Assembly: GCF_000314005.1 (NCBI RefSeq)
Contig: NZ_JH980292.1
Span: 3,322,121 to 3,386,120 of the forward strand
From: Spirulina subsalsa PCC 9445
GTDB lineage: Bacteria > Cyanobacteriota > Cyanobacteriia > Cyanobacteriales > Spirulinaceae
Reading direction: 5' to 3'
Length of the DNA: 64,000 nt
Position 1 is the first letter of the stretch. Each line of letters opens with the position of its first letter. This document shows, in pieces, positions 9,365 through 27,290 of this stretch. A model generated the notes under the pieces. It was given only the letters and a program-made list of their open reading frames with translations, was not told the origin of the DNA and searched no databases. The position numbers were made by a program, and so were the translations under genes.

Positions 9365-9631
9365 CTAACACATTCTCTTGAGTTCAGCCTGAAACAAGCT
9401 GTAATTTTGTTGATTTTCTTCCCACTGACAGAGCAAAATATAAAGTTGAGTCTGTCTAAAATAGGCGACTTCATAGGCAAGGCGTAAACTGCGCTCTAGA
9501 CAGTTTGGTTCAACATCTGAGGCTTTTGTTGAACCTAGAGCTTTCCGAAAGCTGAGGGAGAGAATAGCCACTAAATCATGACCACAACACACTTGCCAAG
9601 GATAAGGAATTCTCTCATGATTGAATTCCTT
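9365..9631 (-). pseudogene. C-terminal remnant of a DUF4435-type gene
   Basis: The frame is open from 9631 to the stop at 9365 but has no ATG; the earliest start is a GTG at 9592. The encoded segment HERIPYPWQVCCGHDLVAIL followed by LSFRKALG and LERSLRLAYEVAYFRQTQLY looks like the last 80-85 residues of a DUF4435 (TOPRIM-like) protein of about 300 residues. It begins within the last codons of the upstream ATPase gene, exactly where the start region of a partner gene would be expected. I infer that an internal deletion removed the first about 200 codons of the partner and fused the remnant to the ATPase 3' end. The family recognition is from memory and should be treated as probable. Confidence 0.55.
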
Positions 9632-10976
9632 TTAATTCTACGGTTAAATCCCAATGATTTTGAATCAGATCGGGGGAATGGGTCGCCATCAAAATATCTA
9701 AGTTAGCCAGTTTAGTAATTTCTTGCAAGTCGCCTAAAAATTGTGCTTGCCAACCCACATGAAGGGACAATTCAGGTTCATCAATTAAAACAAGAGAATT
9801 CGGTTCAACTTTAAATAACAATTCATAGAGCATCACTAATTCATGTTGTTCTCCAGAGGAGAGGTCTGTAGGAGCAATGATGTCCGACTCAGAAGCCGTA
9901 AGATTTGCAACTCTTTTAAAGACAAATCCTTTTTGTTTATTAAATCTCATTTCTTTATAAGAGTAAGCAAATTTTTGATTAATAATCTTTTGCAATAGTT
10001 CAATTTTTGTGGCAACATCTCTCAAGACATCAAGCTTTTGTTCCACGTCATTGACATAAACAGATAGAATGTTTTTTGTATTTTAATCCATCGTTGGGGG
10101 CTGAATTTGTAGATTGGCGTTTTCATCGTTTTCTAATAGACCAATATCAATTAAACGAGTGTGTTTTTTTTCTAAATCCTCCAGTTTTTGCCGCAGTTGC
10201 TCGTCCGTTAGTTTTGGGCAAGGTTGTTGTTGGACTAATCGAACGGGAAAGGTTCGATCGAGTGATTGAGAGATGGTGCCGTATAGGGCAAGTTTGGATT
10301 GAATGAGCTTGGCTGTTTCTTCGGAGTAGGCAGAAACAGTGTGTAACATTGAGGGAATTCTAGGATAAACCCTTGAGGAAGGACTAAAACTGAAGTTTAG
10401 CAGTCGCTGAGACTCAATCAAGCGGATATGAATTTCCTGTTTTAAGTCTTTAAACCATTGAGGTTCTAAATGGGATTGAGTCTGAATGCTGAAGGGTAAA
10501 ATATCTTCAAATCGCTCAATTAGTTCTCGTAAGGACAGGGTTTCACCTGTGGGCAAATAAAGCCATTCGCTAGGGGCTATTCGTTCCAATCCGGGAATGA
10601 TATCATCCAGAGCGCTGATGGGAAAATTAAGTTCTGGTGGTTCTTGGCTGTGCTTGAGGTCATGGGTCTGTTTTTTTGAGTTTTTGCTATAAAAATCAAG
10701 GCTGATTTTTCCTTTGTGTTCTTTGGTTTTACCGTGAGATGTTTTGACGACTTCAAGCCTAGTATGATTGTCAAATTCAATCTTAAGTCGGTTAAAGGGA
10801 ATACTCCGCAATCTAGAATATTGAGCGTTAAATAAACCGTTGAGCATTCGGAGAATTGCTGTTTTACCGAAGCCGTTGGGTCCGTGAATGATGGTGATTC
10901 GCTCGTCGGTATTTAACGGAATCTGATGTTGGAAAATGCCAAATAGTCCATCAACGGATATGGTTTTAATTTTCAT
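9615..10976 (-). pseudogene. AAA/ABC-type ATPase (PARIS AriA-like), split by an in-frame stop codon
   Basis: Residues 1-298 carry the Walker A GPNGFGKTAILRML (about 32-45). An in-frame TAA at 10083-10085 ends this part (QPPTMD stop). The same frame continues as NTKNILSVYVNDVEQKLDVL and holds the ABC signature LSSGEQHELV, Walker B SLVLIDEPELSLH and the H-loop region ATHSPDLI. No frame change is needed, so a single nonsense substitution explains the split; without it the protein would have 453 residues, normal for an AAA_15/AAA_21 ATPase. A GTG at 10044-10046 could restart the second half. Followed by a deleted DUF4435 partner, the locus looks like a decaying two-gene antiphage module of the AriA-AriB (PARIS) kind. 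That name is inference. Confidence 0.75.
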
Positions 10977-11281: not shown

Positions 11282-13702
11282 TCAATGGTCTTCAAAAATC
11301 CCCGCTCTTAAAGGAATGGTGATCATAAAATCCGTCCCCTTCCCTAACTCTGACGTACATTCTAACTTGCCATGATGTTGTTCAACAATGATTTTATAAC
11401 TGGTTGATAAGCCTAGACCTGTACCAGCACCGACGGGTTTTGTAGTATAAAAAGGGTCAAAAATACGAGATAAAGCTTCCGGAGAAATGCCTATCCCATT
11501 ATCATGAATGGTGATTTGAACCCAGCGACGGTATTTTAACTCTGTCTTAATTTCTAAAATGCTGGGATGTTTCACTAGCTCAGGAAAATGACGGTTTTTA
11601 TCTCGTTCATTCAACGCGTCAATAGCATTAGATAGTAAATTCATAAACACTTGATTTAATTGCCCTACATAACATTGTACTGGGGGAATAAAACCATAAT
11701 TTTTGATCACTTGAATGACTGTATTTCCCTCGGTCCCATTTAAACGACTGTTGAGGATCATCAAGGTACTATCTAAGTTTTGATGAAGATCAACCTCCTT
11801 CATTTCGGCTTCGTCTAACCGGGAAAATGTGCGTAAAGATTTTACAATTTCTTGAATGCGGTCTGCGCCCATTTGCATAGACTGATAAAGCCGGGGTAAA
11901 TCTTCAACAAGAAACTCTAGATCAATTTCGTTTATCCAATCTAGAACTTGAGGAGGGGTAACGGGGCAGTATTGACGATAACGTTCGATCAGAACCAGTA
12001 AATCATTGGTGTATTCTTGGGCATGAATCACATTGCCATAAATGAAACTAACGGGATTATTAATTTCGTGGGCAATCCCTGCAACTAATTGCCCTAAACT
12101 GGACATTTTTTCCGCTTGAATTAATTGGGATTGAGCCTGTTGGAGTTGTTTTAAGGCCACTTCGAGGGCTTCACTTTTAGCGGTGGCCAGGCGAGCGGAT
12201 TCTGTGGCTTGGGTGTAGAGATCCGCTTGATTAATCGCGATCGCCATTTGATTAACAATTTCCTGACTTAACTCCAAATCCCTGTCACTCCAAGGTGTTG
12301 GGGCTTCCCGTAACAGCACTAAAGCCCCCAATTTCCGGCTATGAGTTGGGACAGCTAAGAGTAATACACCATCATAGCCCAGTCGAGAAAAATAGGCTTT
12401 AACTTGGGGATCACTCCACTCCACAGTACAATCAAGTTGTAAATTGATCCCCCTCAATAGCGATTCTGTAAAACAGTTTTCTCCCTCATCCCAATGTTGC
12501 CCCAAAAAGCTGGGATCTTCGTCCTGTTTCGCCTCTTGCACCACTTCCCAATAAGAAGCGAGACTCGTCGCGCCACCCTTAAGCAATTCTCCGCTAGAAT
12601 GGCGCTGTTTTCGGTGCTTGCGGCGCTGGACTTCCCCCCGAAACCAGAGAAAACAACATCGATCGGCCTTTAAATAACGCTGAAGTTCTTGGACCGTAGT
12701 CTGAATAACCGTTTCACTATCGAGGGAATTACGAATCAACATCGAGATATGATGCTGCATAGATTCCCACTCCGCAAACTCTCTTAAAATCGCCTCAGAC
12801 CGTTTTAAGGCTTCTTCTGCCTCTTTGCGTCGGGTAATATCTAAAAAAATCCCATCCCAGACTAAGGATAAATCCGCTTGAATTTCTAAACTCGCTTCGG
12901 CTTGTAACCATTTCACCTGACCCGAGGGGGTAATGATACGATATTCATGATGCCAAGGGGTCTGTTGAGCCGCCGCCAGTTGGGTAGAATAGAGAAACTC
13001 ATCGATATCTTGAGGATGAATTAAAGACCACATTTTTTCAGGATCTTGGATAATCATTGCTGGGGTGAGTTCCAGTAAATCCAGTGCATTGCGGCTAATA
13101 TAAGTGAAAAATCCTGTGGGATTATCGGCGGATTTTTGATATTGGTAGGTGACACCCGGTAAATGATCGGCGAGGCGTTTAAAGCGGGCTTGGGATTCTT
13201 GGAGGGCGATTTCTGTAGTTTTGCGATCGCTAATATCAATCGCCGTGCCAATAATCCGGTAAAATGCCCCCGTCTCATCCCGAAGCGGTGTTAACGTCGT
13301 TAAAGTATAAATTCGTCGCCCTGAAAAATCCCGATACTCTTCATAACGGATACTATCTCCAACCAGTAAACACCGATCATAATTCGCTGTAATCTCCGCC
13401 GCCTCCTCCGGGCTAAACAACTCACAAGGCGTTTTTCCCTCCACCTCCTCCGAAGCATAACCCGTGAAGCGACTCGATACCCCATTCCAGCCCAAAAACT
13501 CGTAACGATAAGGAGATCCCCCCCTTGTTTTCTCCTCTTTCGTCTTCAGCGTAACCCCTACTACAAAAATGGCTTGATCTACTCCCTCATAGATCAAACG
13601 TAAAAATTTCTCCTGCGCTTGTAACGTTTCTTCAACCAAGCCAATCCGATTGTTTATTCTACACTCTACAGAAACCACGTCTTGATCCTCCCCAGCCTTC
13701 AT
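11282..13702 (-). CDS. PAS-PAS-GAF sensor histidine kinase
   Basis: An 806-residue soluble histidine kinase. Order of parts: two PAS/PAC sensor domains (about 30-160 and 168-295; the PAC ends are marked by the IGTAIDISDRK and WDGIFLDITRRKEAEEAL segments), a GAF domain (about 320-500, containing LKADRCCFLWFRGE), a short coiled coil (LKQLQQAQSQLIQAEKM), a HisKA-like dimerisation domain with phospho-acceptor His near residue 545 in GIAHEINNPVSF, and a HATPase_c domain with the N box (VFMNLLSNAIDAL), DNGIGI and GTGLGLS. It has no receiver domain and no membrane segment. The AHEINNPVSF type pairs with response regulators through phosphotransfer; the partner is unknown. It is divergent from the chemotaxis cluster across a 754-bp gap, so a link to that pathway is only suggested by position. 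Confidence 0.93.
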   Translation of the reverse strand: MKAGEDQDVVSVECRINNRIGLVEETLQAQEKFLRLIYEGVDQAIFVVGVTLKTKEEKTRGGSPYRYEFLGWNGVSSRFTGYASEEVEGKTPCELFSPEEAAEITANYDRCLLVGDSIRYEEYRDFSGRRIYTLTTLTPLRDETGAFYRIIGTAIDISDRKTTEIALQESQARFKRLADHLPGVTYQYQKSADNPTGFFTYISRNALDLLELTPAMIIQDPEKMWSLIHPQDIDEFLYSTQLAAAQQTPWHHEYRIITPSGQVKWLQAEASLEIQADLSLVWDGIFLDITRRKEAEEALKRSEAILREFAEWESMQHHISMLIRNSLDSETVIQTTVQELQRYLKADRCCFLWFRGEVQRRKHRKQRHSSGELLKGGATSLASYWEVVQEAKQDEDPSFLGQHWDEGENCFTESLLRGINLQLDCTVEWSDPQVKAYFSRLGYDGVLLLAVPTHSRKLGALVLLREAPTPWSDRDLELSQEIVNQMAIAINQADLYTQATESARLATAKSEALEVALKQLQQAQSQLIQAEKMSSLGQLVAGIAHEINNPVSFIYGNVIHAQEYTNDLLVLIERYRQYCPVTPPQVLDWINEIDLEFLVEDLPRLYQSMQMGADRIQEIVKSLRTFSRLDEAEMKEVDLHQNLDSTLMILNSRLNGTEGNTVIQVIKNYGFIPPVQCYVGQLNQVFMNLLSNAIDALNERDKNRHFPELVKHPSILEIKTELKYRRWVQITIHDNGIGISPEALSRIFDPFYTTKPVGAGTGLGLSTSYKIIVEQHHGKLECTSELGKGTDFMITIPLRAGIFEDH

Positions 13703-14456: not shown

Positions 14457-14846
14457 ATGAAACGTATCTTAGTAGTCGATGACTCAGCCACTATGCGAAA
14501 AATGGTAATTGCCTCTTTAAGAGACTTACCGGGCTTCACATTTAGTGAAGCAGCCAACGGTTTAGAAGCCATTGAGCAAATGCAGAACTCCCCCTTTGAT
14601 CTCATGGTTTTAGACCTCAATATGCCCGATATGCACGGTTTAGATGTGTTGCGATTTGTCCTCAGCCATCCCGATTATCAAGCTACCCCCATTGTTATCT
14701 TAACGACTAAGGGCGATCCAGAAAGTAAAAGTGAAGCCCTATCGGCTGGAGCATCTTGTTACTTAACGAAACCTTTTCAACCCAAATCTTTGGCTGAACA
14801 AATTCAAGAACTGGTTAACCTTAAATTAGGCTTCAATGTAAGCTAA
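14457..14846 (+). CDS. cheY: CheY-type response regulator
   Basis: A 129-residue stand-alone receiver domain. The acidic pocket is Asp8-Asp9, the phosphorylation site is Asp53 in MVLDLNMPDMHG, Thr83/84 follows beta-4 (ILTTKGDP) and Lys105 (YLTKPF) completes the active site. No output domain is present, so the phosphorylated form presumably acts by protein contact, on type IV pilus or gliding machinery in a cyanobacterium (inference). It is the first gene of the chemotaxis cluster; cheA, its likely phosphodonor, begins 314 bp downstream. The start ATG at 14457 directly gives the canonical MKRILVVDDSATMR N-terminus. Confidence 0.9.
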   Translation: MKRILVVDDSATMRKMVIASLRDLPGFTFSEAANGLEAIEQMQNSPFDLMVLDLNMPDMHGLDVLRFVLSHPDYQATPIVILTTKGDPESKSEALSAGASCYLTKPFQPKSLAEQIQELVNLKLGFNVS

Positions 14847-15160
14847 AATTTAGGCAAAAAATACCTAAAAGTAGGAAGATTATCTTAGAGATTTATGATC
14901 TAAAATAAAAGTTAAACAGATCATTTTTTGCCCTGAACTCAACTTTTATTATTAGACCGATAAGCCCAACAAAATTAAACATTGCCAAAATTAAACCTTA
15001 GAGGTGAGATGGATTAGAGGTAAACAGACAATCTCCTAATTTTGACGGAGAAAAATTTTCCCTAGCCCCTGCTACTTCTAATCTATTCAATTCGGCGCAA
15101 TCGTAATGTTTTTTTAAAAAAGCTTGTCAAAATCTCGTACTCGTGCAGGGAGTTAAAATA
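14847..15160. other. intergenic region between cheY and cheA
   Basis: AT-rich, no open frame of note. TTTTTTTAAAAAAGC near 15110-15124 is palindromic and lies about 40 bp before cheA. A purine-rich AGGGAG at 15148-15153 is the likely ribosome-binding site of cheA. No clear terminator after cheY was found. Confidence 0.5.
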
Positions 15161-17440
15161 GTGGTGTCTAAGACTTCAGAAGACAATAGCTTTTTTACAG
15201 AATTTCTAGAGGATTATTTCGCCGAATGTGAGGAACATCTCGCGGCCATTCGTCAGAACCTTTTGGTCTTAGAATCGTTCCTCGACCAACCCCATGTAGA
15301 ACTGGAAGTATTACAAGCCCTATTTCGGAGTTTTCACACCTTAAAAGGGTTATCCGGCATGGTGGGGATTAAAGAAGCTGAAGCACTAGCCCATCAGATG
15401 GAAAGCTATTTACGTCTGTTGCGAGAAGAACATCCTGCCCTATCTGCATCCGGTTTTGATGCCTTAATGGAAGGAACAAAAACCCTAGAGCAAGTCATTA
15501 ATTGTCAGCACCAAAACGCTCCTTTGCCCGATATTGAACCCATTGTCGAAAAACTGAAGGTCTTACTGCCCACAGAAACTAAACCAAGCCAAAAAACGCA
15601 AGGGATTATTACCCCCATTCATCTCGCACTGCCCAGCACCGCTCAAGACCACCTGAAAGGGGTTCAGGAAGAAGGTCAAAAAGTCTGGCATTTTGTGTTT
15701 TCTCCCAACTCCCAACGGGCCCAAGCAGGCATTAATGTCAATGTGATTCGCAGTCGTTTGGAAAGTATTGGGCAAGTCATTCATGCGGCACCTCGTCTTA
15801 ATCCTGACCATCAGATTGTTTTTGATTTTGTCGTGGGAACAACAGCCGAAGAGAGCCTTTTTTCCCCTTGGTCCCAAGAGGGAGTTACTTGGACTCCCTA
15901 TGAAACCCCAGAAACAACCCCTCCGAATGAACCCCTGAAACCTGTAGAAGCGGCAGTGAAGCCAGTGGCAACAGTCCCAGAAAGCGGGGACACCAAACCA
16001 ACCCAAGAGTCAACACCCGGCTCTGATGACGACGAAACCACTCCTGCGCCCCTTTTATCCGGGGTGGATGCCCCCCCGGCCTTGCCCTTGTTGGGCAACG
16101 CTGCGCGAACAGAACCCATGACCAAGGCTGCACCCCTGATTTCTCAACCCTCTACTGTTGTGCGAGTAGAGTTGCCCAAACTGGATGCTCTGATGCGAAT
16201 GGTGGGGGATTTAGTCATTAGTCGGGCGAGATTAGATGATTATATTCATCAACTGAAAAGCATCTTACCCGACGCTCAACTGCGACCCTTACAGGAACTA
16301 AACTTAACCTTAGAACGACAGATGCGGGACTTGCGGGAAGGGGTGATGCGGGTGCGACTGGTGCCGATTGGGGAGATATTCGCTCGGATGCAGTTTGTGG
16401 TGAGGGATTTAGTGCGGGAAAGTGATAAGGAGGTGGTGTTAAAAATTAGTGGACAGGAAACCGAGATTGATAAGTTTGTGGTGGAACGGATGATGGACCC
16501 GATGCTGCATCTTGTCCGCAATGCTGTAAGTCATGGCATTGAAAGCCAAGAGCAACGGTTAGCCGCCCAGAAAAGCCCTGTGGGTCAGATTCACCTGCGC
16601 GCTCAAACCTCGGGGGAAATGGTGATGATTGAAATTGAGGATGATGGGCGAGGGGTGGACGGGAAAAAGGTCATAGAGCAGGCGAGAGAGCGTCAGTTAA
16701 TCTCTTCTGGAGTCGGAGAAGACCATTATGATGGCATGAGTTTGTTAGAGATTTTATGCGCCCCCGGCTTTTCGACTAAAGAACAGGCCGATTTGGCCAG
16801 TGGTCGGGGTGTGGGGATGGCTATTGTGAAGAACACTGTGCGGGAGTTAGGGGGGCTGCTTGATTTGACGACGGAAGTGGGTCAGGGGACTTGTTTTCGG
16901 ATTCAATTGCCGCTTACTTTGGCGATCGCAGATGCTTTAATTACCAATGTAGGAACCGATACTTTCGCCATTCCTCAATCCTCCGTCCGCGAAGTGATTG
17001 AAGTCTCCCCCAGTCAAGTCATCCACTTTGAAAACAACGAAATTATTCCCTATCGCGGTCAAGTCTTACCCCTCGTTCATTTAAACCACTTATTCCATCT
17101 CACCCCAAGTTTAGACCCCATCCATCCAGACACCCGCTTAAAAATCGTCGTAGCAGGCAGTAGCCTAAACACCGTTGGTTTAGTCGTAGAGCGCATTATT
17201 GGGCTGCGGGAAATCGTCGTCCAAGCCCTCACAGACCCCCTAGTGCGCGTCCTAGGAGTCGCCGGAGCCACGGAATTGGGAGATGGGCGCGTCGTCCTCA
17301 TCTTAGACGTGGGGGCCCTCGTGCGCATGGCAGCCGCCCGTAAATCCATCAGTCAAGGGAGCAGGGGGGGAGGGGGAGAGGGGGAGCAGGGGAGCAGGGG
17401 AGCAGGGGGGCAGGGGAGCAGGGGGGCAGGGGAGAATTGA
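15161..17440 (+). CDS. cheA: chemotaxis histidine kinase CheA
   Basis: A 759-residue CheA (765 if the upstream GTG at 15143 is used; I prefer GTG 15161, which has AGGGAG at proper distance). Domains in order: HPt (P1) with phospho-His in FRSFHTLKGLSGMVG (about residue 59), a regulatory insert and a Pro/Thr-rich linker (about 255-330), the dimerisation helices (DALMRMVGDLVISRARLD), the HATPase core with LHLVRNAVSHGIE, DDGRGVD, GFSTKEQ and GRGVGM, and a C-terminal CheW-like domain. There is no fused receiver, in contrast to many cyanobacterial CheA proteins; cheY is separate. The last about 28 residues (SQGSRGGGGEGEQGSRG and following) are encoded by a composite short-repeat array, so this tail is not part of the ancestral protein. 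cheW follows after 111 bp. Confidence 0.95.
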   Translation: MVSKTSEDNSFFTEFLEDYFAECEEHLAAIRQNLLVLESFLDQPHVELEVLQALFRSFHTLKGLSGMVGIKEAEALAHQMESYLRLLREEHPALSASGFDALMEGTKTLEQVINCQHQNAPLPDIEPIVEKLKVLLPTETKPSQKTQGIITPIHLALPSTAQDHLKGVQEEGQKVWHFVFSPNSQRAQAGINVNVIRSRLESIGQVIHAAPRLNPDHQIVFDFVVGTTAEESLFSPWSQEGVTWTPYETPETTPPNEPLKPVEAAVKPVATVPESGDTKPTQESTPGSDDDETTPAPLLSGVDAPPALPLLGNAARTEPMTKAAPLISQPSTVVRVELPKLDALMRMVGDLVISRARLDDYIHQLKSILPDAQLRPLQELNLTLERQMRDLREGVMRVRLVPIGEIFARMQFVVRDLVRESDKEVVLKISGQETEIDKFVVERMMDPMLHLVRNAVSHGIESQEQRLAAQKSPVGQIHLRAQTSGEMVMIEIEDDGRGVDGKKVIEQARERQLISSGVGEDHYDGMSLLEILCAPGFSTKEQADLASGRGVGMAIVKNTVRELGGLLDLTTEVGQGTCFRIQLPLTLAIADALITNVGTDTFAIPQSSVREVIEVSPSQVIHFENNEIIPYRGQVLPLVHLNHLFHLTPSLDPIHPDTRLKIVVAGSSLNTVGLVVERIIGLREIVVQALTDPLVRVLGVAGATELGDGRVVLILDVGALVRMAAARKSISQGSRGGGGEGEQGSRGAGGQGSRGAGEN

Positions 17441-17532
17441 TAATTATTCCCTATTACCTCTTCCCCGACTCCCGACTCCCGACTCCCGATTCCCTATTCC
17501 CCATTCCCTATTCCCCATTCCCAACTCCCGAC
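17357..17532. repeat. composite short tandem repeat, copy B (enters cheA)
   Basis: GGGAGCA/GGGGAGCA octamers from 17357, the AT-rich core TTGATAATTATTCCCTATTA with CCTCTTCCCC (about 17437-17467), then CGACTCC and ATTCCCT heptamers to about 17532. The G-rich arm is translated as the Gly/Ser/Gln/Arg tail of CheA, and the core supplies its TGA stop. Confidence 0.9.
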
Positions 17533-17551
17533 ACCTTATTCACAACCAATT

Positions 17552-18016
17552 ATGTCCAACTCATCCAACCCAAACGAAGCCTTTATCATCTTTGAACTGG
17601 CCGACACCTTATATGGAATTTCGTCCCAATCCGTACAGCAAATGGAAATGGTGGATAGAATTACCCCCGTTCCCAATGCACCCCACTTTGTCGAAGGAGT
17701 GGTATTTTCCCGAGGACAAGTGATTCCCGTGATTAACCTCCGCGCCCGCTTTGGCTTTGAAAAAATTCCCTACAACCTACGCACCCGGTTAATCGTCACC
17801 CAAAGTCAAAACCGCACCATCGGATTAATTGTAGACACCGCCCGAGAATTTATCGTGATTCCCGAGAATGCCATTCAACCTCCCAACGAGGAAATTTCTG
17901 GGTTAAGTGGGCGCTACCTAGCCGGAATTGCCACCCTTGAAAAACGAATTATTCTCATTCTGAAAGTCGAGGAAGTCTTTCAAATGCCAGATTCTAGCCT
18001 CTCGGTTTTGTCTTAA
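17552..18016 (+). CDS. cheW: chemotaxis coupling protein CheW
   Basis: A 154-residue single CheW domain (two five-stranded SH3-like subdomains) covering nearly the whole protein. Typical segments are the N-terminal EAFIIFELADTLYGISSQSV, VVFSRGQVIPVINLRARFG and RTIGLIVDTAREF. It scaffolds the receptor (next gene) to CheA (previous gene). The ATG at 17552 follows a repeat array with no strong ribosome-binding site, unusual within this operon, so translation may be weak or leaderless-like. The downstream receptor gene starts 50 bp later behind a good AAGGAG, consistent with co-transcription. Confidence 0.93.
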   Translation: MSNSSNPNEAFIIFELADTLYGISSQSVQQMEMVDRITPVPNAPHFVEGVVFSRGQVIPVINLRARFGFEKIPYNLRTRLIVTQSQNRTIGLIVDTAREFIVIPENAIQPPNEEISGLSGRYLAGIATLEKRIILILKVEEVFQMPDSSLSVLS

Positions 18017-18066
18017 ATCCTGTCCTTTCCCTACAGCCTATTTAATTAATCAAGGAGTTTTTTCTC

Positions 18067-20139
18067 ATGGCTAAAAATCGCCAGGCTGCCAAAGCCCCCA
18101 AACCCAACAACGGCAAAGGATTAGCCTCCTCCCCAGACCTAAACCCCCTGATGGCCGCGACAGCCGCCCAAATGACTCAAGGGGTACAAGACTTGAGTAG
18201 CGTACTCACCCAACTTGACCAAGATAACCACAAACAAACCCAAACCCTTGAAGAAGCAACAACCAGTATTGTTGAAATTGCTACCTCCTTAAAAGACACA
18301 GCCAATCAAGCCCAATCCGTGGCTGATTCCACCGAGCAGATGGTGTCCTCCATCAACGAAATTGCGGCCTCCGTGGAACAAGTAACAGGCAGTAGCACAG
18401 AACTGGCTACCGCTATCCGACAGGTCAGCACCTCGATCACAGAAAGCAGTACCAACACCAAAAACGTCGCCGAAACCTCCCAAGACATGGCAGCCTCAGC
18501 CCAACAGGTGACGGCTTCTATGACCGAAATCGCGGCCTCGATTAAAAGCGTCAGCAACGACACGGAAAACCTCGCCTCGGCGGTGAATCAAACGGCGGCC
18601 TCGGTGGAAGAAATGAATAGTTCTATCCAAGGGGTGGCGCAAAATGCCGATGATATGACGGCGGCCTCGGAAGAAACGACCTCCTCGATTAATGAAATGG
18701 CGGCCTCGATTGAACAGGTTTCCGCCAGTACCGAGAATTTAACCGCGACGGTGGAAGATGTAGCCAGTTCCATTGAAGAAATGGCGCAGTCTATCCAAGG
18801 GGTAGCCCAAAATAGCGAAAGAATCACCGAAGCGGCAACCAATGCGGCTACCAGTGCCGAACAACTGGACCGTTCCATTCGCTCGGTGTCTACCTTAACC
18901 CAAAAGGCTGATGAACTGACCCAACGCATGGCGCGGGATGCGGAAGTGGGAGGCGCAACGGTTGAAAAGGCGATTCAAGGTTTAGGACGAGTGCGCCAGT
19001 CCATGGTGCAGTCGGCTGATGTGATTCGGGATATGGGGAAGCGGACGACGGAAATTAGTTCCATTGTGGACACGATTAATTTAATCGCTGAACGGACGAA
19101 TTTATTGTCTCTCAATGCTTCCATTGAAGCGGCCCGGGCTGGAGAGGCAGGGCGGGGCTTTGCGGTGGTGGCGGAGGAAATTCGCAATCTGGCAGACCGG
19201 GCGGCTCAAGCGACTTCTGATATTGGGATGATTATTAAGGGGTTACAAAATGTGGTGCAGGAGGCGGTGAATACATCTAGCGAGGGGGTGCGAGTTGCTG
19301 AAGATAGTGGGCGTTTGGCAGAAGATGGGGCGCAGGGGTTGAAAAAAATCCTGGATGGGGTGGAAGAAACGACGAAGTTGGTGGGTCAAATTTCTAGTGC
19401 TTCGGAAGAGCAGTTAGTGGCCGGGCAAACGGTGGTGACGGCGATTAATGCTACTGTCGCCCAAGCGAAAGAAGTAAGCAGGGCAACGATTGAACAGGCG
19501 AAGGCGTCGGAACGGATTGTTCAATCGACCCAACAAATGCGTCAGATTAGCCAACAGGTGAATCAGGCGATGCGGGAACAGTCCCGGGCGGCGCGAGATG
19601 TGATTAAGGCGGCGCAAAATACAAATAATTTGGCGGGACAAGTGCGCAAGGCGGCTAATGAGCAGGCGAAGGGGGCGACCCAAATTATGCAGGCCATTGA
19701 GATGATGCGTCGGGGTATTGGGACGACTTCCCGAGCCTTGCAGGAACAGTCTGTGGCGGGGGATCAAATTTCTCAGGAGGCGGAACGCTTGGTGCGGTTA
19801 ATTAATACGGTGACGCAATCGATGCAGGAACAGACGACGAGCGCGCTACAACTGAATAAGGCGACGGATAGTATGCGGGTGCAGTCGGAACAGGTGGCGA
19901 AGGCGATGAGGGAACAAAACCGCGCTATTCAGGACATGATGTTGTCAAGTCAAAATATTGTTAAACAAATTCGCTTGATTTCGGCGAGCAATTTGGAACA
20001 TTCGGCGGTGGCGAGTCGAGTTCAGCAGTTGGTGCGTGATGTACAATTGTTTTCTTCTCGGGGAAGTCAAGGTTTACAAGAGTCTAAGACGTTGGTAAAT
20101 CAGCAGTTATCCATGATTCGTAATGTGGGAAATCAATAA
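18067..20139 (+). CDS. soluble methyl-accepting chemotaxis protein
   Basis: A 690-residue chemoreceptor with no membrane-spanning segment and no recognisable ligand domain (no PAS, GAF or Cache). After a short basic, Pro-rich N-terminus ([18 protein letters not shown]) it is almost continuous coiled coil, with repeating motifs such as [15 protein letters not shown] and [16 protein letters not shown] that resemble stacked HAMP/signalling heptads. The conserved hairpin tip that contacts CheA/CheW is [20 protein letters not shown] followed by [17 protein letters not shown] (about 340-375). Gln/Glu pairs suited to methylation by the cluster's CheR and removal by CheB occur on both sides. What it senses is unknown; a cytoplasmic signal, or input through the PAS-HEAT protein next door, is possible (inference). 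Confidence 0.93.
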
Positions 20140-20142
20140 GTT

Positions 20143-20319
20143 GGGGGAATAGGGAATAGGGGGAGAGGGGGAGAGGGGGAGCAGGGGAGCAGGGGAGCAG
20201 GGGAGCAGGGGAGCAGGGGAGAGGGGGAGTTGATAATTATTAACTATTCCCGATTCCCGACTCCCGATTCCCGATTCCCGACTCCCGACTCCCGACTCCC
20301 GACTCCCGACTCTCCCCCG
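20143..20319. repeat. composite short tandem repeat, copy C
   Basis: G-rich arm of GGGGAGCA octamers and GGGGGAGA units (20143-20229), a variant core TTGATAATTATTAACTATTC (20230-20249), then CGATTCC/CGACTCC heptamers to about 20319. It starts 4 bp after the receptor gene's stop codon and ends 70 bp before the PAS-HEAT gene. Confidence 0.9.
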
Positions 20320-20389
20320 TTCCCTTATTCAACAAACGCTAGCTACTGGCATCGACTTACTATCCACTATCCTCTGTCCACAATCCACT

Positions 20390-23164
20390 ATGACTATTAG
20401 TATTTTCACTACGGATGCTCATTTACTCATTCGATCTTGGGATGCAACGCTGGTTGCTATGACGGGATTGAAAGGGGAACAAGTGTATGGCAAGCCTTTA
20501 ATGGATTTGATTCCGGATTTAGCGTCTCGGGGGCTGTTGGAGCGGTTTCAACGGGTGCTGAGGGAGGGGGTGATTGAAACGTTGGCCCCGGCTTTGCATC
20601 ACTATCTGATTCCTTGTCCTCCTGAACGATCTTCTCCCTATTTTGATAAGATGCAGCAACGGGTGACGATTGCTCCGTTACGCGATCGCGATGAGGTGAT
20701 TGGGACGATTGTCACCCTAGAGGATGTGACGGAACGGTTGATTGAGGAACGGGTGTTAGCCCAAAAGTTGGCGGAACCTCAAAAAATCCCGGATTCTATC
20801 GAAGAGGCTTTATCGCTGTTGGATCAAAATCATCCTCAAGTGCGATCGCAAATTGTCAATCATTGGGCGAAGTCTTCTCAACCCCAAATTACCCAAGAGT
20901 TATTAACTCTCCTACGCCGAGAACACCGCAATCCCAATGTGTTAAATAGTGTGTTGCAGGTGCTGGTTTTGAGTCATGTAGATCCCATTCCCGCCCTGAT
21001 TGACTGTTTACAGGATCCGGATGTGGATCTGCGCATTTATGCGGCCTTGGCTTTGGGTGAACGCCACGATGGACGAGCAATCCCCGCGTTGCGGGAGGCG
21101 TTAAAGGATCAGGATACAAATGTTCGGTATCATGTGATTGAAGCCTTGGGTCATCTCCAAGCCACGGAGACGATTGATGAGTTGTGCGAAATTGCCCGAG
21201 GAGGGGATTTTTTCTTGGCATTTCCGGCACTGGAAGCCTTGATGCGGATTGGGGATAGTACGGTGGCCAGTCGTTTGTTGCCTCTGTTGGAGGATGAGTT
21301 ACTGGTGGATCAGGTGACGGAGGTGTTGGGGCAGTTGGGGGATGCGGATGTGGTGGTGGCAATGGCAGAACAGTTGAATCTGCCTAATACCCAGGTGTTA
21401 AGTATTGCGGGGGCGATCGCCAAAATTTCCCAACGCTATCAAAAGATTTACGGTGAAGGGGATGTTATCGCTGATTTAGCCTGTCAAGGGATTCAGGAGG
21501 AAGGCGTTGATAATATTTTAGCGGTTCTCCCAGAAGCCTCTGATGAGCAACTGACGGCTTTAGTGGTTCTGTTAGGGTCTTTGGAAGGTGAAAAGATAGA
21601 ACGGGCTTTAGCCGGCCTGTTAGAGTCTTCTGCGGTGCGAGAATTAGTCCAATCGGCCATGATCCGCTATGGGCGGAATACTCGTTCTCGGGCGAGGGTG
21701 ACAGATTTATTAATTCAACAGTTGGATTCTCCGGATTTGGAAACTCGCAAATTAGCGGCCGATGCTTTGGGACGCATTGGCAGCCCTCGGGCAGTTGAGG
21801 CGTTGACTCAACTGCTGAGTGAAGATCCAGAACTGGTGATGGTCACGGCGGCGGCCTTAGCCCAAATTGGGGATCAAAAGGCGTTTGACTCTCTGTTAAG
21901 TTTAATGGGACATCCAGAATCGGCTGTGCGTTTGGCGGCGATCGCTGCCCTCAATTCCTTGGGTCATCCGGCGATGTCTCAGCGTATCCTGCCCATGCTC
22001 AAAGATGAGAATCCTTGGGTGCGAGAATCGGCTGTTAAAATCGCGGGCTATTTTGCCTTTCGCGAATGTATTGATCCCCTGTTTGATTGTTTAGAAGACC
22101 CGGAAGAGCGAGTGCGGCGGGCGGTGATTGAACATTTGCCCTATTTGGAAGATGACCGAGTGTTTGGGGTTTTAGTGCGATCGCTCACTCAAGAAACCCC
22201 CGGAGTCCGGGCAGTGGCCGCCCACGCTTTGGGCGAGTTGGGGACTTTAACCCCCTCAGCGCTCACCCCGGAACTGTTCGAGCATTTACGCCAAGCCTTA
22301 GAAGATTCAGAACCCTGGGTCCGCTATCAAGCGGTGCGTTCTCTCGGCCGTTGGCTGGGAGAAATGGGCAACACCCCAGCCACGGAGACGATGATTGACC
22401 AACTGCTCCCCCGGATTAAAACCCTGATTGAGGAAGATCCAGCCAATCCCGTGCGGGCTGCCGCCGCTAAAACCTTGGGGCAACTGGGTCATGAGGAAAT
22501 GATCCCCCTCTTAATCCAACTCAGTGAAGATGAGAACAGCGATCCCGATATTGCTCGGGCTGCCCTCTTAGCGTTGGGTCAAATTGACCACCCCAACGCG
22601 GTTTCCGCCCTGATGACTGGGTTAAATTCCCCCAATCCAGAACGGCGACTCGATGCCATCCAAGCCTTCCGGGAACGGGGGGATACTGATGCAGGCCTCG
22701 CTTTACAATGGATGGTAGCGGCGGATCCTGAAACCAAGGTCGTTCATGCCGCCATTGACTCCCTCTCCCGCATGGCCACCCCTGATGCGATCGCCGCCCT
22801 CCTAGAACTCACCCTCGACCCCAGCAATCGAGAAGCCTGTATCAACGCCCTCGCCCAACGGGGCAACCACCCCAACACGGCCAAACTCGAATATATTGAG
22901 GCGATCGCTAAGGGGCTCAATCATGTTCACACCACTATCCGGTGTGCCGTGGTCGAAATCCTCAAACGGCTCAAACATCCCTATGCCTCAGAATTTCTCA
23001 TCGCCGCCCTCCACGATCGGGAATCCGGCGTGCGTTTAGCCGCCGTCAGCGCCCTCATTGCCCTAGGGAATCGTTCCTGTATCGAACAATTAGCCATGCT
23101 GACCCGAACCGACCCCTCCCCGGCTGTCCGTCGTGCGGCACAACGACTCTTACACTTTTCGTGA
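20390..23164 (+). CDS. PAS domain plus HEAT-repeat protein of the chemotaxis cluster
   Basis: A 924-residue soluble protein. Residues 1-120 form one PAS domain (IRSWDATLVAMTGLKGEQVYG, ending IVTLEDVTERL). From about 140 to the C-terminus there are some 22-25 HEAT/PBS-lyase-type repeats with the recurring pattern V(R)xxAAxALGxLG; clear units include YAALALGERHDGRAIPALRE, AADALGRIGSPRAVEALTQL and VRAAAAKTLGQLGHEEMIPL. The HEAT superhelix is a protein-binding scaffold; the PAS may sense redox, light or a small ligand. It has no kinase, lyase or receiver domain. Placed between the receptor and cheR, on the same strand, it may be a receptor accessory or adaptor (inference). Its stop codon lies in a repeat shared with IS debris at 48.2 kb. 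Confidence 0.85.
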   Translation: MTISIFTTDAHLLIRSWDATLVAMTGLKGEQVYGKPLMDLIPDLASRGLLERFQRVLREGVIETLAPALHHYLIPCPPERSSPYFDKMQQRVTIAPLRDRDEVIGTIVTLEDVTERLIEERVLAQKLAEPQKIPDSIEEALSLLDQNHPQVRSQIVNHWAKSSQPQITQELLTLLRREHRNPNVLNSVLQVLVLSHVDPIPALIDCLQDPDVDLRIYAALALGERHDGRAIPALREALKDQDTNVRYHVIEALGHLQATETIDELCEIARGGDFFLAFPALEALMRIGDSTVASRLLPLLEDELLVDQVTEVLGQLGDADVVVAMAEQLNLPNTQVLSIAGAIAKISQRYQKIYGEGDVIADLACQGIQEEGVDNILAVLPEASDEQLTALVVLLGSLEGEKIERALAGLLESSAVRELVQSAMIRYGRNTRSRARVTDLLIQQLDSPDLETRKLAADALGRIGSPRAVEALTQLLSEDPELVMVTAAALAQIGDQKAFDSLLSLMGHPESAVRLAAIAALNSLGHPAMSQRILPMLKDENPWVRESAVKIAGYFAFRECIDPLFDCLEDPEERVRRAVIEHLPYLEDDRVFGVLVRSLTQETPGVRAVAAHALGELGTLTPSALTPELFEHLRQALEDSEPWVRYQAVRSLGRWLGEMGNTPATETMIDQLLPRIKTLIEEDPANPVRAAAAKTLGQLGHEEMIPLLIQLSEDENSDPDIARAALLALGQIDHPNAVSALMTGLNSPNPERRLDAIQAFRERGDTDAGLALQWMVAADPETKVVHAAIDSLSRMATPDAIAALLELTLDPSNREACINALAQRGNHPNTAKLEYIEAIAKGLNHVHTTIRCAVVEILKRLKHPYASEFLIAALHDRESGVRLAAVSALIALGNRSCIEQLAMLTRTDPSPAVRRAAQRLLHFS

Positions 23165-23186
23165 ACGACCTGACGCTGAATCGAAG
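23161..23186. repeat. short repeat shared with the 48.2-kb mobile debris
   Basis: GTGAACGACCTGACGCTGAA plus TCGAAG here resembles GTGAACTAACCGACGCTGAA plus TCGAGG at 48233-48258, with only a few mismatches. It overlaps the stop codon of the PAS-HEAT gene. It may be a fossil end of an IS200/IS605-type element. Confidence 0.55.
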
Positions 23187-23346
23187 ATCACAGCGCGCCA
23201 GCGTGGAGTAGATTTCTTTTATCCTCTACTATCCCGTCTTACCGTTTGGCGATAGACAATGCTGAAGCGTCCCCCAGCTAAAGAAGGTCACGCTTCCTCT
23301 GATTACCCTTGTACCTGACGATTACTCATTACAGTAGGACCGACGG

Positions 23347-24267
23347 ATGACTCATGATAAATGGCAAGATATCAATAAACTTCGTTTAACAAGTTGGAAA
23401 GAACCCGTTGAATTGAATGAAAGTACTTTTACTATTTTGCGAGATTTAATCCATGAAAAATCAGGTCTTTATTATGAGTTAAACAAACGAGAAATGTTGG
23501 GGGATAAACTAACTCCTCGCTTACAAGAATGTGGTCTAACTTCCTTCCTAGATTACTATTATTTCCTCAAATATGACCCTAGTGCCTATGAAGAATGGGG
23601 TCATTTGATGAATGCTTTAGCGGTTCCAGAAACCTTTTTTTGGCGAGAGATTGATCCCATTCAAACCCTAGTTCAGATCATTTTACCAAAATGGTTTGCC
23701 TTGAATAGCCAAGATACCTTTCGCATTTGGAGTGCGGCTTGTTCCACAGGAGAAGAACCTCTGACCATCGCGATGGCTTTAAATGAAGCAGGTTGGTTTC
23801 AAAAATGTAATATTCAAATTTTTGCCAGCGATGCTTCATCCAAGGCGATTCGGACTGCCCGTGAAGGCATTTATCGAGAACGATCATTTCGCGTTCTTTC
23901 TCCTCTCCTAAAATCTAAGTATTTTGTGGAAATTGTCGATCCCATAAGGAAAGACCAAAAAGCTTGGAAAATTGATGAATTGATCCACAAAAGAATCAAG
24001 TGGTCTGTGGCAAACTTAATGAACGTTTGGGAGTTTAGCTCCTTAGCTCGGGCTAACTTTATCTTTTGTCGCAATGTCTTTATCTATTTTTCTGAACAAG
24101 CCATTGAAAACACCGTCAATCATTTTTATGACTTTATGCCTTCCCCGGGTTATCTATCCATCAGTACATCAGAGTCTCTCTTAAAACTCAAAACTCCATT
24201 TCAGTTAAAAGAAATTGGGGGTGCATTTATTTATCTCAAATCTAAAGAGCAAGCAAGGAGTATCTAG
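23347..24267 (+). CDS. cheR: chemotaxis protein methyltransferase CheR
   Basis: A 306-residue CheR: an N-terminal all-alpha domain (FTILRDLIHEKSGLYYEL) and a C-terminal Rossmann methyltransferase with the AdoMet loop IWSAACSTGEEPLTIAMAL (about 128-146) and the ANFIFCRNVFIYF strand. It adds methyl groups to receptor glutamates, here most likely of the soluble receptor two genes upstream, and so provides adaptation opposed by CheB. It lacks C-terminal TPR repeats. It overlaps cheB by one base (TAGTG), a sign of translational coupling. Codon use and the lower GC of this gene differ slightly from the GC-rich HEAT gene before it. Confidence 0.95.
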   Translation: MTHDKWQDINKLRLTSWKEPVELNESTFTILRDLIHEKSGLYYELNKREMLGDKLTPRLQECGLTSFLDYYYFLKYDPSAYEEWGHLMNALAVPETFFWREIDPIQTLVQIILPKWFALNSQDTFRIWSAACSTGEEPLTIAMALNEAGWFQKCNIQIFASDASSKAIRTAREGIYRERSFRVLSPLLKSKYFVEIVDPIRKDQKAWKIDELIHKRIKWSVANLMNVWEFSSLARANFIFCRNVFIYFSEQAIENTVNHFYDFMPSPGYLSISTSESLLKLKTPFQLKEIGGAFIYLKSKEQARSI

Positions 24268-25331
24268 TGAGTAAAGTTATTCGGGTCTTAATTGTGGATG
24301 ATTCCGCCTATGTGCGGAAAGTGGTTCGCCAAATGCTCTCCCGCAGTCCCTTTATAGAAGTAGTGGGGACAGCCCACGATGGGAAAGATGCCCTAGAACA
24401 AATTGAAAAGCTCAACCCAGATGTTGTCACCCTCGATTTAATCATGCCAGAAATGGAAGGGGTGGAGTTTTTAAAACACCAAATGGCTAAACATCCTATT
24501 CCAGTGGTGGTGGTGAGTATTGCCGATGAGGGGGGGGAACGAGTGCTGGCGGCCTTAGATGCGGGGGCCGTGGATTTTGTCCAAAAACCCACCGCTTTAG
24601 CCACCGATAAAATGTATGACATTAGCGACGAGTTAATTGACAAGGTAAAGGCCGCCGCCCATGTTCCCCTCAATCGTCTTCCGGTTCAAGCCCCCAGTCC
24701 TCTAGTCTTGGTGGAAAAACCCATGACTCCTTCTCCTGTCTCATCCCAAGCTTTAGAAATGATTGTGATTGGTATTTCCACCGGAGGCCCCCAAGCCTTG
24801 GCCTATGCCATCCCCCAACTCCCGGCCGATTTCCCTCTCCCCATCGCCGTTGTGCTTCATATGCCCATTGGCTACACCAAAATGTACGCCGAACGCCTCA
24901 ATGGTCTTTCCGCTTTAGAAGTCATCGAAGCGGCCGAGGGGGATGAGGTGCGCCCCGGACGGGTGATGATTGCCCCGGCGGGTCGCCATTTAACCTTTGT
25001 TCGGCAGCCCAACGGTCAGGTGTTGGCTCATTTGGAAGCCCGCCCCTTTGATATGCTCCATCGTCCTAGTGTGGATGTTCTCTTTCAATCGGCGGCGGAG
25101 GTCTATGGTTCCCATTTATTGGGAGTGGTGATGACGGGGATGGGGTCCGATGGGAAACAAGGCTCTGCTTGGATTAAGTCCCACGGGGGGCTAGTCTACA
25201 CCGAAGATGAATCCAGTTGTGTGGTCTATGGGATGCCTCGTTCGGTGGTCGAGGCGGGATTAAGCGATCGCCGAATTTCCCTCCAGTATCTCCCCAGTAC
25301 CTTGATTCATCTAGCAACGTCAGGGGTTTAA
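24267..25331 (+). CDS. cheB: protein-glutamate methylesterase/deamidase CheB
   Basis: A 354-residue CheB with an N-terminal receiver domain (Asp57 in VVTLDLIMPEMEG, Lys108) and a C-terminal methylesterase domain. The catalytic triad is visible: Ser172 in IGISTGGPQAL, His199 in VVLHMPIGY and Asp296 in TGMGSDGKQGS. It removes methyl groups, or deamidates glutamines, on receptors when phosphorylated by CheA, giving negative feedback. The start is GTG at 24267, overlapping the cheR stop TAG by one base, with AAGGAG at 24255-24260 as ribosome-binding site. The adjacent cheR and the soluble receptor make a complete adaptation module. Confidence 0.96.
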   Translation: MSKVIRVLIVDDSAYVRKVVRQMLSRSPFIEVVGTAHDGKDALEQIEKLNPDVVTLDLIMPEMEGVEFLKHQMAKHPIPVVVVSIADEGGERVLAALDAGAVDFVQKPTALATDKMYDISDELIDKVKAAAHVPLNRLPVQAPSPLVLVEKPMTPSPVSSQALEMIVIGISTGGPQALAYAIPQLPADFPLPIAVVLHMPIGYTKMYAERLNGLSALEVIEAAEGDEVRPGRVMIAPAGRHLTFVRQPNGQVLAHLEARPFDMLHRPSVDVLFQSAAEVYGSHLLGVVMTGMGSDGKQGSAWIKSHGGLVYTEDESSCVVYGMPRSVVEAGLSDRRISLQYLPSTLIHLATSGV

Positions 25332-25398
25332 TCGCTTACCGTTTACATTCTCCATTGCTGCGCAACTCTACGCAAACGTCATTTAAGGGATTCTGACT

Positions 25399-26025
25399 AT
25401 GCTACTGACCGATAAACAACAGGATGTTTTAACCCGTTTTATTAAAATTGCGTTATCCCGTCGGACGGCGGCTTCACTCTCCCACTTAATTGGTTCTCCG
25501 GTTGTCTTAGAGGTGGCAGAAGTCGCATTATACCCCCTGAGTTTTCTCCATACGGAGTTTACAAAAAACTTACTGGATGAGGTGGCGGTGATTCGTCATA
25601 GTTTTGAGGGGGGAATTAATGGGGACGCTTTACTCTCCTTGGATTATCATGCTGCGGTTCAGTTAACCAATCTCCTCCAGTCTCATGGCATGATCTACCC
25701 CCTCGATCAGTTAAATCTCTCCGCCTGTGAGGTTTTAACGGAGGTGGGCAATATTCTATTAACCGCCTATTTACGGATGTTAGATCAACTGCTCGGTCAG
25801 CCCATCACCTTTGGGGTACCCTCCTTTGAGATGAATTCGATGCAGGGGATTCTCAATCATTTGGTTCTGAGTCGTCATGAAGTCCGTTATGTATTACTGG
25901 TCAAAACCACCTTTCGCCTTTGTGATACAGCCGTGGACAGTTATATGATGTTGGTGTCTGGTGTTGCCTCCCTTTCTAGTTTAATTCGGGGGATTGAGGC
26001 ATCTTTTTGTCTCCCTTCACCTTAA
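25399..26025 (+). CDS. cheC: CheC-like phosphatase
   Basis: A 208-residue protein of the CheC/CheX/FliY fold. The helix CEVLTEVGNILLTAYLRML (about 113-131) carries the E-x2-N phosphatase motif (ExxN). A second such motif, present in many CheC proteins, is not obvious, so it may have one active site, as in CheX. By family knowledge it dephosphorylates CheY-P; in systems with CheD it also binds CheD, but no cheD is present in the window. It follows cheB by 67 bp on the same strand. In this cluster it would provide the signal termination that CheZ gives in enteric bacteria (inference). Confidence 0.78.
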   Translation: MLLTDKQQDVLTRFIKIALSRRTAASLSHLIGSPVVLEVAEVALYPLSFLHTEFTKNLLDEVAVIRHSFEGGINGDALLSLDYHAAVQLTNLLQSHGMIYPLDQLNLSACEVLTEVGNILLTAYLRMLDQLLGQPITFGVPSFEMNSMQGILNHLVLSRHEVRYVLLVKTTFRLCDTAVDSYMMLVSGVASLSSLIRGIEASFCLPSP

Positions 26026-26030
26026 CAAAA

Positions 26031-27290
26031 ATGTTGCGGAATTCCCCTTCCTCGCCAACGGCAGGGTCGGGTAGTTCACAACGGTCACTGAGCAAAGTCG
26101 AAGTGATGATTATTACCCTCAGTCTTTTGGCAGGTTATAGCAATCAAACTGTCCAGCAATGGCAGTTTAGAGATCAAGCCCGGATTCGTATTGGTCGAGC
26201 TCCAGATAATGATGTCGTCCTAACTGACCCGGTGGAAGTGTCGCGCTACCATCTCGAATTGCGTCGTCAGTCCCCGGATTGTTGGGTTTTAATCAATCAC
26301 GGGGCCAATGGGACTTTTCTCAATGGGATGCCTGTCTCTCAAGTCGCCCTTGCCCATAATGTAATCGTTCAATTGGCCAAAGGCGGCCCCCGTTTTCATA
26401 TTGCCCTACAAATGCCCCCCCAACTCCAATGTACCCACGGCAATAATCCCCCAAACACCCTCTTTTGTATCCACTGCGGCGAACCTCGGGTAGACCAAGA
26501 GGAATTCATCCGCCAGTATCAGGTGTTACGGGTTCTGGGTCAAGGGGGCATGGGAACCACTTACCTCGCTTGGGATAAACAAGGCACGATTACCGGAAAA
26601 CCCATCCTGTTGGTTCTCAAAGAAATGAACGCGGACATGGCGCAGAATGCCAAGGCCCAGGAACTCTTTGAACGAGAGGCGCGGGTGTTACAATCCCTCA
26701 ACCATGAGGGCATCCCCCGTTACTATGATTTTTTCTTGGAGCGGAATAAAAAATATTTAGCCATGGAACTGGTTCACGGGGACAATTTAGAGCAACGCAT
26801 CTATCAAAAAGGGGTGATCCCCCCCGCCGTGGCTATTTCTTGGATGATTCAAACCTGTGAAATTTTGCAATATCTGCACGGCCTCAACCCTCCCCTCATC
26901 CATCGTGATGTCAAACCCGCCAACTTAATGCTCCGTCAACGGGATCAACGCATTGTCCTGCTGGATTTTGGCGCGGTCAAGGAAATTGGAACCCCCCTCG
27001 GTACTCGTATCGGTGCAGAAGGGTATAGCGCCCCAGAGCAAGACCGGGGGCAACCTTGCCCCCAGTCTGATTTATTCGCGATCGCCCCGACCTTGATTTT
27101 CCTCCTCACAGGTCAATCCCCTTTGCACTTTTATCAACATCAGGGCCACGAATACCGTCTAGAGGTTAGCCATTTGCCAACCCTTACCCCGCAACTGTGC
27201 GAAGTCGTCCATAAAATCGCCGAACCTCAGCTAAAGAACCGTTATCAGACGGCTCAAGATGTTGCAAAGGCTCTTCGGACTTGTTTGTGA
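26031..27290 (+). CDS. FHA domain and zinc-ribbon Ser/Thr protein kinase
   Basis: About 419 residues from ATG 26031; a start at ATG 26106 (MIITLSLLAGYSNQTVQQW) is also possible and matches the usual N-terminus of related kinases. Parts in order: FHA phosphothreonine-binding domain (RIRIGRAPDNDVVL, VSRYHLEL, NGTFLNG), a four-Cys/His ribbon (CTHGNNPPNTLFCIHCG), then a Hanks-type kinase with Gly-rich loop LGQGGMGTTYLA, catalytic Lys in LVLKEMN, HRDVKPANLML and DFGAVKEIG, and a shortened C-lobe. It is soluble. It starts 6 bp after cheC and so is probably co-transcribed with the chemotaxis genes; FHA-linked Ser/Thr signalling onto a Che pathway is an inference. Confidence 0.9.
   Translation: MLRNSPSSPTAGSGSSQRSLSKVEVMIITLSLLAGYSNQTVQQWQFRDQARIRIGRAPDNDVVLTDPVEVSRYHLELRRQSPDCWVLINHGANGTFLNGMPVSQVALAHNVIVQLAKGGPRFHIALQMPPQLQCTHGNNPPNTLFCIHCGEPRVDQEEFIRQYQVLRVLGQGGMGTTYLAWDKQGTITGKPILLVLKEMNADMAQNAKAQELFEREARVLQSLNHEGIPRYYDFFLERNKKYLAMELVHGDNLEQRIYQKGVIPPAVAISWMIQTCEILQYLHGLNPPLIHRDVKPANLMLRQRDQRIVLLDFGAVKEIGTPLGTRIGAEGYSAPEQDRGQPCPQSDLFAIAPTLIFLLTGQSPLHFYQHQGHEYRLEVSHLPTLTPQLCEVVHKIAEPQLKNRYQTAQDVAKALRTCL

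Follow-up and report, generated by a model that had tools for sequence, protein, structure and literature searches.

The Frz system of Myxococcus xanthus, which controls movement reversals, combines CheR and CheB homologues with a soluble receptor, FrzCD, that is described as having a positively charged N-terminus and no obvious sensing domain and whose residues 1-30 bind DNA (PMC12077210). Also in M. xanthus, the HEAT-repeat protein Cpc7 works with the Che7 chemosensory pathway; the source describes it as a 27-helix partner of CheY7, mentions no PAS domain and cites Darnell et al. 2014 for the interaction (PMC11514114). The cytoplasmic arrays of Rhodobacter and Vibrio are formed by soluble receptors with CheA and CheW, and in these two baseplates lying 27-35 nm apart sandwich the receptors (PMC3964821). 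In gliding or twitching cyanobacteria the Tax, Pix and Hmp systems assemble CheA, CheW, MCP and CheY, with two response regulators and, in PixG, a PATAN-type output. CheR and CheB are not known from the cyanobacterial Tax and Hmp clusters.

The locus described here shares parts with each of these systems. It lies in a window of 64,000 nucleotides (the whole stretch of DNA analysed), G000:C2:3322121-3386120, from the 5.3 Mb cyanobacterial genome of Spirulina subsalsa PCC 9445, and the nine open reading frames that a first-pass annotation had placed on one strand were all found there with their domains (window coordinates, plus strand unless stated). The single-domain response regulator gene cheY (14457..14846; 129 residues; Pfam Response_reg, 97 bits) is the first gene in the conserved order, its orthologues being 50-79% identical. 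It is followed by cheA (15143..17440; 765 residues, GTG start; Hpt, H-kinase_dim, HATPase_c and CheW domains), one of four CheA genes in the genome, cheW (17552..18016; 154 residues; Pfam CheW, 113.6 bits), the soluble receptor gene mcp (18067..20139; 690 residues; MCPsignal), the PAS-HEAT gene (20390..23164; 924 residues; PAS_4 and HEAT_2), cheR (23347..24267; 306 residues; CheR, 138.6 bits, plus CheR_N), cheB (24267..25331; 354 residues; CheB_methylest, 200.6 bits, plus Response_reg) and a cheC-like phosphatase gene (25399..26025; 208 residues). The last frame, encoding an FHA domain and a Ser/Thr kinase (26007..27290; Pfam FHA and Pkinase), adjoins the system and probably lies outside it. 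Measurement bore out the small gaps and overlaps from cheY to the kinase gene: the gaps from cheY to cheR are, in order, 296, 111, 50, 250 and 182 bp, cheR and cheB overlap by 1 bp, 67 bp separate cheB from cheC, and cheC and the kinase gene overlap by 19 bp, provided that the TTG start is right. A terminator scan of the cluster gave a number of sites not above expectation (within about 1.3 standard deviations), none of which convincingly splits the genes, and a promoter scan of the cluster stayed at chance level (16 found, 15.4 expected).

The chemosensory core is represented by a CheA with Hpt, dimerisation, HATPase and CheW domains, by CheW and CheY, and by an MCP signalling tip whose motif is nearly invariant among orthologues. 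The adaptation enzymes are complete, as first annotated, with a two-domain CheR, a CheB that joins REC and methylesterase domains and conserves the Ser/His/Asp motif residues S171, H198 and D295, and a receptor bearing methylation-type sites, recognised from sequence. Unlike the Tax, Pix and Hmp systems, with which it shares CheA, CheW, MCP and CheY, the window system has one REC-only CheY, no PATAN domain, and CheR, CheB, CheC and a HEAT protein. Just upstream of cheY, a divergent gene for a soluble PAS-PAS-GAF histidine kinase (11282-13702, minus strand) is not kept beside the cluster in most relatives. Two adjacent frames at 9615-10976 (minus strand) resemble a single AAA ATPase gene split between reading frames and are probably a broken gene. 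Some 60 kb upstream of the window there is a second receptor cluster (G000:C2:3257901-3264564; loci L001, L087, L088, L101 and L102) with CheR, a double-CheW protein and two MCPs, and with no match to CheA.

The CheC protein scores 63.5 bits with NCBIfam CheC_Thtogales, below the cut-off of 250, and Pfam gives no CheC match. Only the second of the two E-x2-N sites of CheC is found: E115 and N118 are kept in all 58 relatives and P141 in 56 of them, while the first site is lost in the window lineage, where R13 and K16 stand in place of the E13 and N16 of most relatives. Judged from these residues, the protein is a divergent CheC with a single active site.

Gene order was compared around the matches obtained when 291 genomes of the order were searched with the CheC protein. 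The order cheY-cheA-cheW-mcp-HEAT-cheR-cheB occurs in all intact orthologous loci but one (synteny across 36 cyanobacterial loci), mostly with cheC next and with small variations. When 84,980 species genomes were scanned once for the PAS-HEAT family, 50 loci came up across several phyla, almost all of them keeping this order and with breaks mostly at contig ends; the hosts belong to Cyanobacteriota, Chloroflexota, Acidobacteriota, Thermodesulfobacteriota, Thiotrichaceae and Gemmatimonadota and include a Dictyoglomus MAG. The conservation of gene order that the first-pass annotation had proposed as a check is thus seen in dozens of genomes, so the neighbourhood is not a chance one.

The receptor and HEAT genes also occur together. 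Among 691 genomes searched, 40 have both and each is found alone in one; in the order-level set of 291 the long receptor is present in 38, the HEAT protein in 38 and both in 37, and in 400 Chloroflexota genomes (the phylum of L147) the receptor occurs in 3 and the HEAT gene in the same 3, adjacent. The genome with HEAT alone (G259) has its cluster cut by a contig end, and the genome with the receptor alone (G038, locus L167) has neither HEAT nor cheY and keeps cheA, cheW, mcp, cheR and cheB. At L167:10962-14273, in the place of the HEAT gene, a KaiC-type ATPase and a PAS histidine kinase are encoded on the opposite strand. The PAS-HEAT protein is accordingly part of the system, as had been claimed: it accompanies the receptor in 40 of 41 receptor-bearing genomes, its gene lying between mcp and cheR, and homologous clusters do not regularly lack it. 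Trees of receptor, CheR and CheB together and of HEAT are congruent (mirror-tree r of 0.89), with the cyanobacteria forming one clade in both. Co-occurrence and congruent trees together indicate that the module is old and inherited as a unit, and cheY-cheA-cheW-mcp-(PAS)HEAT-cheR-cheB(-cheC) forms a single chemosensory module that is ancient, co-inherited and shared across phyla.

Non-cyanobacterial clusters usually continue after cheB with a second cheY, cheC and a PAS-containing gene, which joins the PAS subfamily of the PAS-HEAT protein to a histidine kinase or GGDEF domain. Such PAS-GGDEF or PAS-histidine kinase genes end the clusters at L133:15646-17061, L160, L136, L141, L151 and L164. 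The use of one PAS subfamily in these enzymes suggests a shared signal and a possible c-di-GMP output. Apart from the cluster, many cyanobacteria have a three-gene set of divergent cheY, cheC and hybrid histidine kinase (L064, L067, L071, L073, L074 and L081-L084), which is joined to the cluster in L060 and L061.

The receptor is a coiled-coil hairpin of about 665 residues, nearly all of its 690, with arms formed by residues 25-357 and 359-688. The AF2 model, of moderate confidence (pLDDT 72, pTM 0.30), places helices at 25-187, 195-357, 359-523 and 534-688 and the hairpin tip at residue 358; its two low-confidence breaks lie at mirrored positions and could reflect either hinges in the protein or an artefact. 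At 0.15 nm per residue each arm of about 330 residues, or about 47 heptads, is predicted to extend for about 50 nm. No indel was found over residues 60-640 (581 residues) in 42 orthologues from several phyla that are 43-94% identical to the window receptor. The symmetric gapless core holds at least 80 heptads, and the AF2 helices give about 94. MiST3 lists twelve receptor classes, from 24H to 64H in total (PMC6943060); with about 1.5 times the length of a 64H signalling domain, the receptor falls outside this list, and its class may already sit unnamed in the MiST database. Elsewhere in the genome, two further receptors that were parsed have ordinary second arms of 136-146 residues. Solved receptors match over residues 182-505 only, the tip and flanking shaft, and a designed coiled coil matches residues 59-253. 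Beyond the heptad both arms show a 28/56-residue period, the lag-56 value being reached in 0 of 2000 heptad-preserving shuffles of either arm, which suggests from sequence periodicity that the arms grew through matched duplication of 4- or 8-heptad blocks. FrzCD, in comparison, is 417 residues long, of which 281 form the signalling domain, and contains a di-HAMP, whereas the window receptor has a HEAT partner and no HAMP was found in it. Compared with the 27-35 nm of Rhodobacter and Vibrio, whose soluble receptors it parallels, rods of the modelled length predict a baseplate spacing of about 90 nm or a single layer.

Methylation-type sites fall mainly in the first arm, where residues 86-236 (18322..18774) contain the family-wide consensus sites 90, 104, 125, 139, 181, 202, 216 and 230, a position that would put them 130-270 residues (20-40 nm) from the tip. 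The proteins carry 5.07 such sites on average, compared with 1.29 in heptad-preserving shuffles.

At the N-terminus of the receptor is a basic disordered tail (residues 1-24; 18067..18138) with a net charge of +5 in the first 20 residues and AF2 pLDDT below 40 over residues 1-20. Soluble cyanobacterial receptors have a mean of +4.9 in 20 residues, against a background of -0.7 (sd 1.9) and a value of 0 in transmembrane forms. In its charge the window tail resembles the basic DNA-binding tail of FrzCD. The window receptor has no hydrophobic segment (best 19-residue Kyte-Doolittle mean 0.93) and, like other cytoplasmic chemoreceptors, no transmembrane segment. The description of the receptor as lacking a membrane domain therefore holds for the window protein and fails as a family trait, because an N-terminal transmembrane helix is present in 3 of 42 orthologues and in several more cyanobacterial ones; among cyanobacterial receptors basic tail and helix are alternatives. 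The basic tail is absent from acidobacterial and gammaproteobacterial receptors. Chloroflexota-type receptors (L164, L147, L125, L149 and L155) begin with short peptides of aromatic and basic residues, such as MGIFGRFSRNNRQK, that could be peripheral membrane anchors.

The PAS-HEAT protein is modelled by AF2 at a mean pLDDT of 91 as a PAS domain (residues 3-112, by secondary structure; 20396..20725), a linker and a solenoid of about 25 HEAT repeats (residues 149-923; 20834..23158), the best Foldseek matches of the solenoid being CAND1, karyopherins and the PP2A scaffold subunit. In four clusters (L149, L164, L168 and L169) the HEAT protein has no PAS domain, so PAS sensing is not universal; the solenoid is the near-obligatory part and PAS is optional. 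A stand-alone PAS at L149 was considered as a split subunit and rejected, since it resembles the front of a degraded kinase gene. HEAT length varies by blocks of 5 repeats while receptor length is invariant. The window protein has about 155 fewer HEAT residues than that of the sister Spirulina (L049/L117, 1081 residues), the missing segment mapping to 20804-20840, around residues 139-150, where two related repeat blocks meet, consistent with recombination between the blocks. Like CpcE, CpcF and NblB, the protein has HEAT repeats of the PBS-lyase type, but a role as phycobilin lyase was rejected on scores far below the cut-offs (NblB 148 against 300, CpcE 93 against 330) and on the occurrence of the family, unlike those lyases, in non-phototrophic hosts too. 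Within the PAS domain Cys76 and Met88 are conserved, and the partner PAS domains are without the Cys. A check for a haem sensor found no conserved His on the F helix, and a search of the PAS sequence against solved structures gave marginal phytochrome matches only.

We propose that receptor dimers would form rods of about 50 nm, with CheA and CheW bound at the tips. As there is no ligand domain in the receptor, we infer that the PAS-HEAT solenoid supplies the signal, docking on the core complex at the receptor shaft and/or CheA; PAS would sense a cytoplasmic cue and a flexible HEAT spring would pass it on. CheR and CheB would act on the methylation-type sites, which form a ladder on the shaft far from the tip, and so reset the array. 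CheY~P would be the output leaving the array, to be dephosphorylated by CheC through its one remaining site. The transmembrane helix would anchor the array or, in soluble forms, the basic tail would do so, perhaps to the nucleoid, in the manner of FrzCD. The probable output in filamentous cyanobacteria would be control of gliding or its reversal via type IV pili; no type IV pilus output gene is linked to the cluster.

This explanation as a whole, with the PAS-HEAT protein as input to a ligand-domain-free receptor, has in our estimate a probability of about 0.47, and we favour it over an arrangement in which the protein is instead the output, CheY~P binding the HEAT solenoid as CheY7 does Cpc7 and PAS modulating that effector. 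The output arrangement, the main rival, which we consider less likely, would account for the loss of cheY from the sole HEAT-less cluster, L167, in which cheA, cheW, mcp, cheR and cheB are retained, and for the lack of any other dedicated effector gene in the system, and it has a precedent in the reported Cpc7-CheY7 interaction. That precedent is weakened by the 27 helices of Cpc7 and the silence of the source on PAS, and by the PAS-HEAT scan, which contains no named Myxococcus genome and whose lone Myxococcota-labelled match (L136) is an unclassified MAG. Moreover, the HEAT gene is always beside mcp and never beside cheY, and HEAT distances track those of CheA, CheR and MCP more than those of CheY (partial r of 0.50, 0.34, 0.33 and 0.21, respectively, suggestive only). 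Locus L143 has HEAT without a local cheY and speaks against the CheY target as L167 speaks for it, a balance of one case each. Gene adjacency and distance correlations are thus suggestive of the PAS-HEAT protein as input.

Two further arrangements were weighed. The HEAT protein could serve to assemble or space the long receptors, by bundling or capping them, or be a docking rail for CheR and CheB, with PAS as an addition; an obligatory HEAT with optional PAS, a HEAT length that shifts by 5-repeat blocks at constant receptor length and a fold resembling scaffold proteins all fit such a role. We find it improbable, since PAS is kept in most members and its subfamily recurs in partner signalling enzymes, which points to sensing, and since a strict length rail would not tolerate the loss of 155 residues within one genus. 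Far less credible is the first-pass proposal that PAS-HEAT input is joined by phosphorylation from the FHA kinase as integral pathway control. An overlap of cheC with the kinase gene is present in the sister Spirulina as well, but the kinase gene adjoins the cluster only in these two genomes and is unlinked in every other genus examined, lying elsewhere in the genome where a relative has both. Its orthologue is widespread and single-copy, occurring in 41 of 59 relatives, many of which have no cluster, and homologous clusters regularly lack it, the slot 3' of cheC being occupied in other lineages by unrelated genes, PAS sensor kinases or diguanylate cyclases. This distribution removes the FHA kinase from the proposed system; it is probably a bystander with no conserved role.

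Returning to the input arrangement, the long rods (about 94 heptads in 28-residue blocks), the distant methylation ladder, the interchangeable helix or tail anchor and the detachable PAS-HEAT sensor may together define a new array class, a proposal that we make tentatively and hold to be rather doubtful. The first-pass annotation had singled out the locus as a candidate undescribed system, and literature searches on HEAT proteins in chemosensory clusters and on CheR/CheB in cyanobacteria, with most subscription journals outside their coverage, gave no description of it. The module seems to be a form of the bacterial chemotaxis machinery that has not been described.

The hosts in the scan include Spirulina, Oscillatoria, Arthrospira, Planktothrix, Laspinema, Phormidium, Thioploca and Herpetosiphonaceae, which are filamentous and mostly gliding. 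From this list of hosts a link of the module to gliding is likely, into which the Acidobacteria and Syntrophorhabdaceae do not fit. Receptor length classes are one basis for sorting chemosensory systems, and a receptor of strictly conserved length that exceeds the longest class on the list about 1.5-fold, in several phyla, would extend the range of array geometries known. Through a near-obligatory HEAT partner, receptors that have no ligand domain could obtain their signal, a question that FrzCD also raises. The hosts are largely filamentous and mostly gliding, and in such bacteria the control of reversal is poorly understood.
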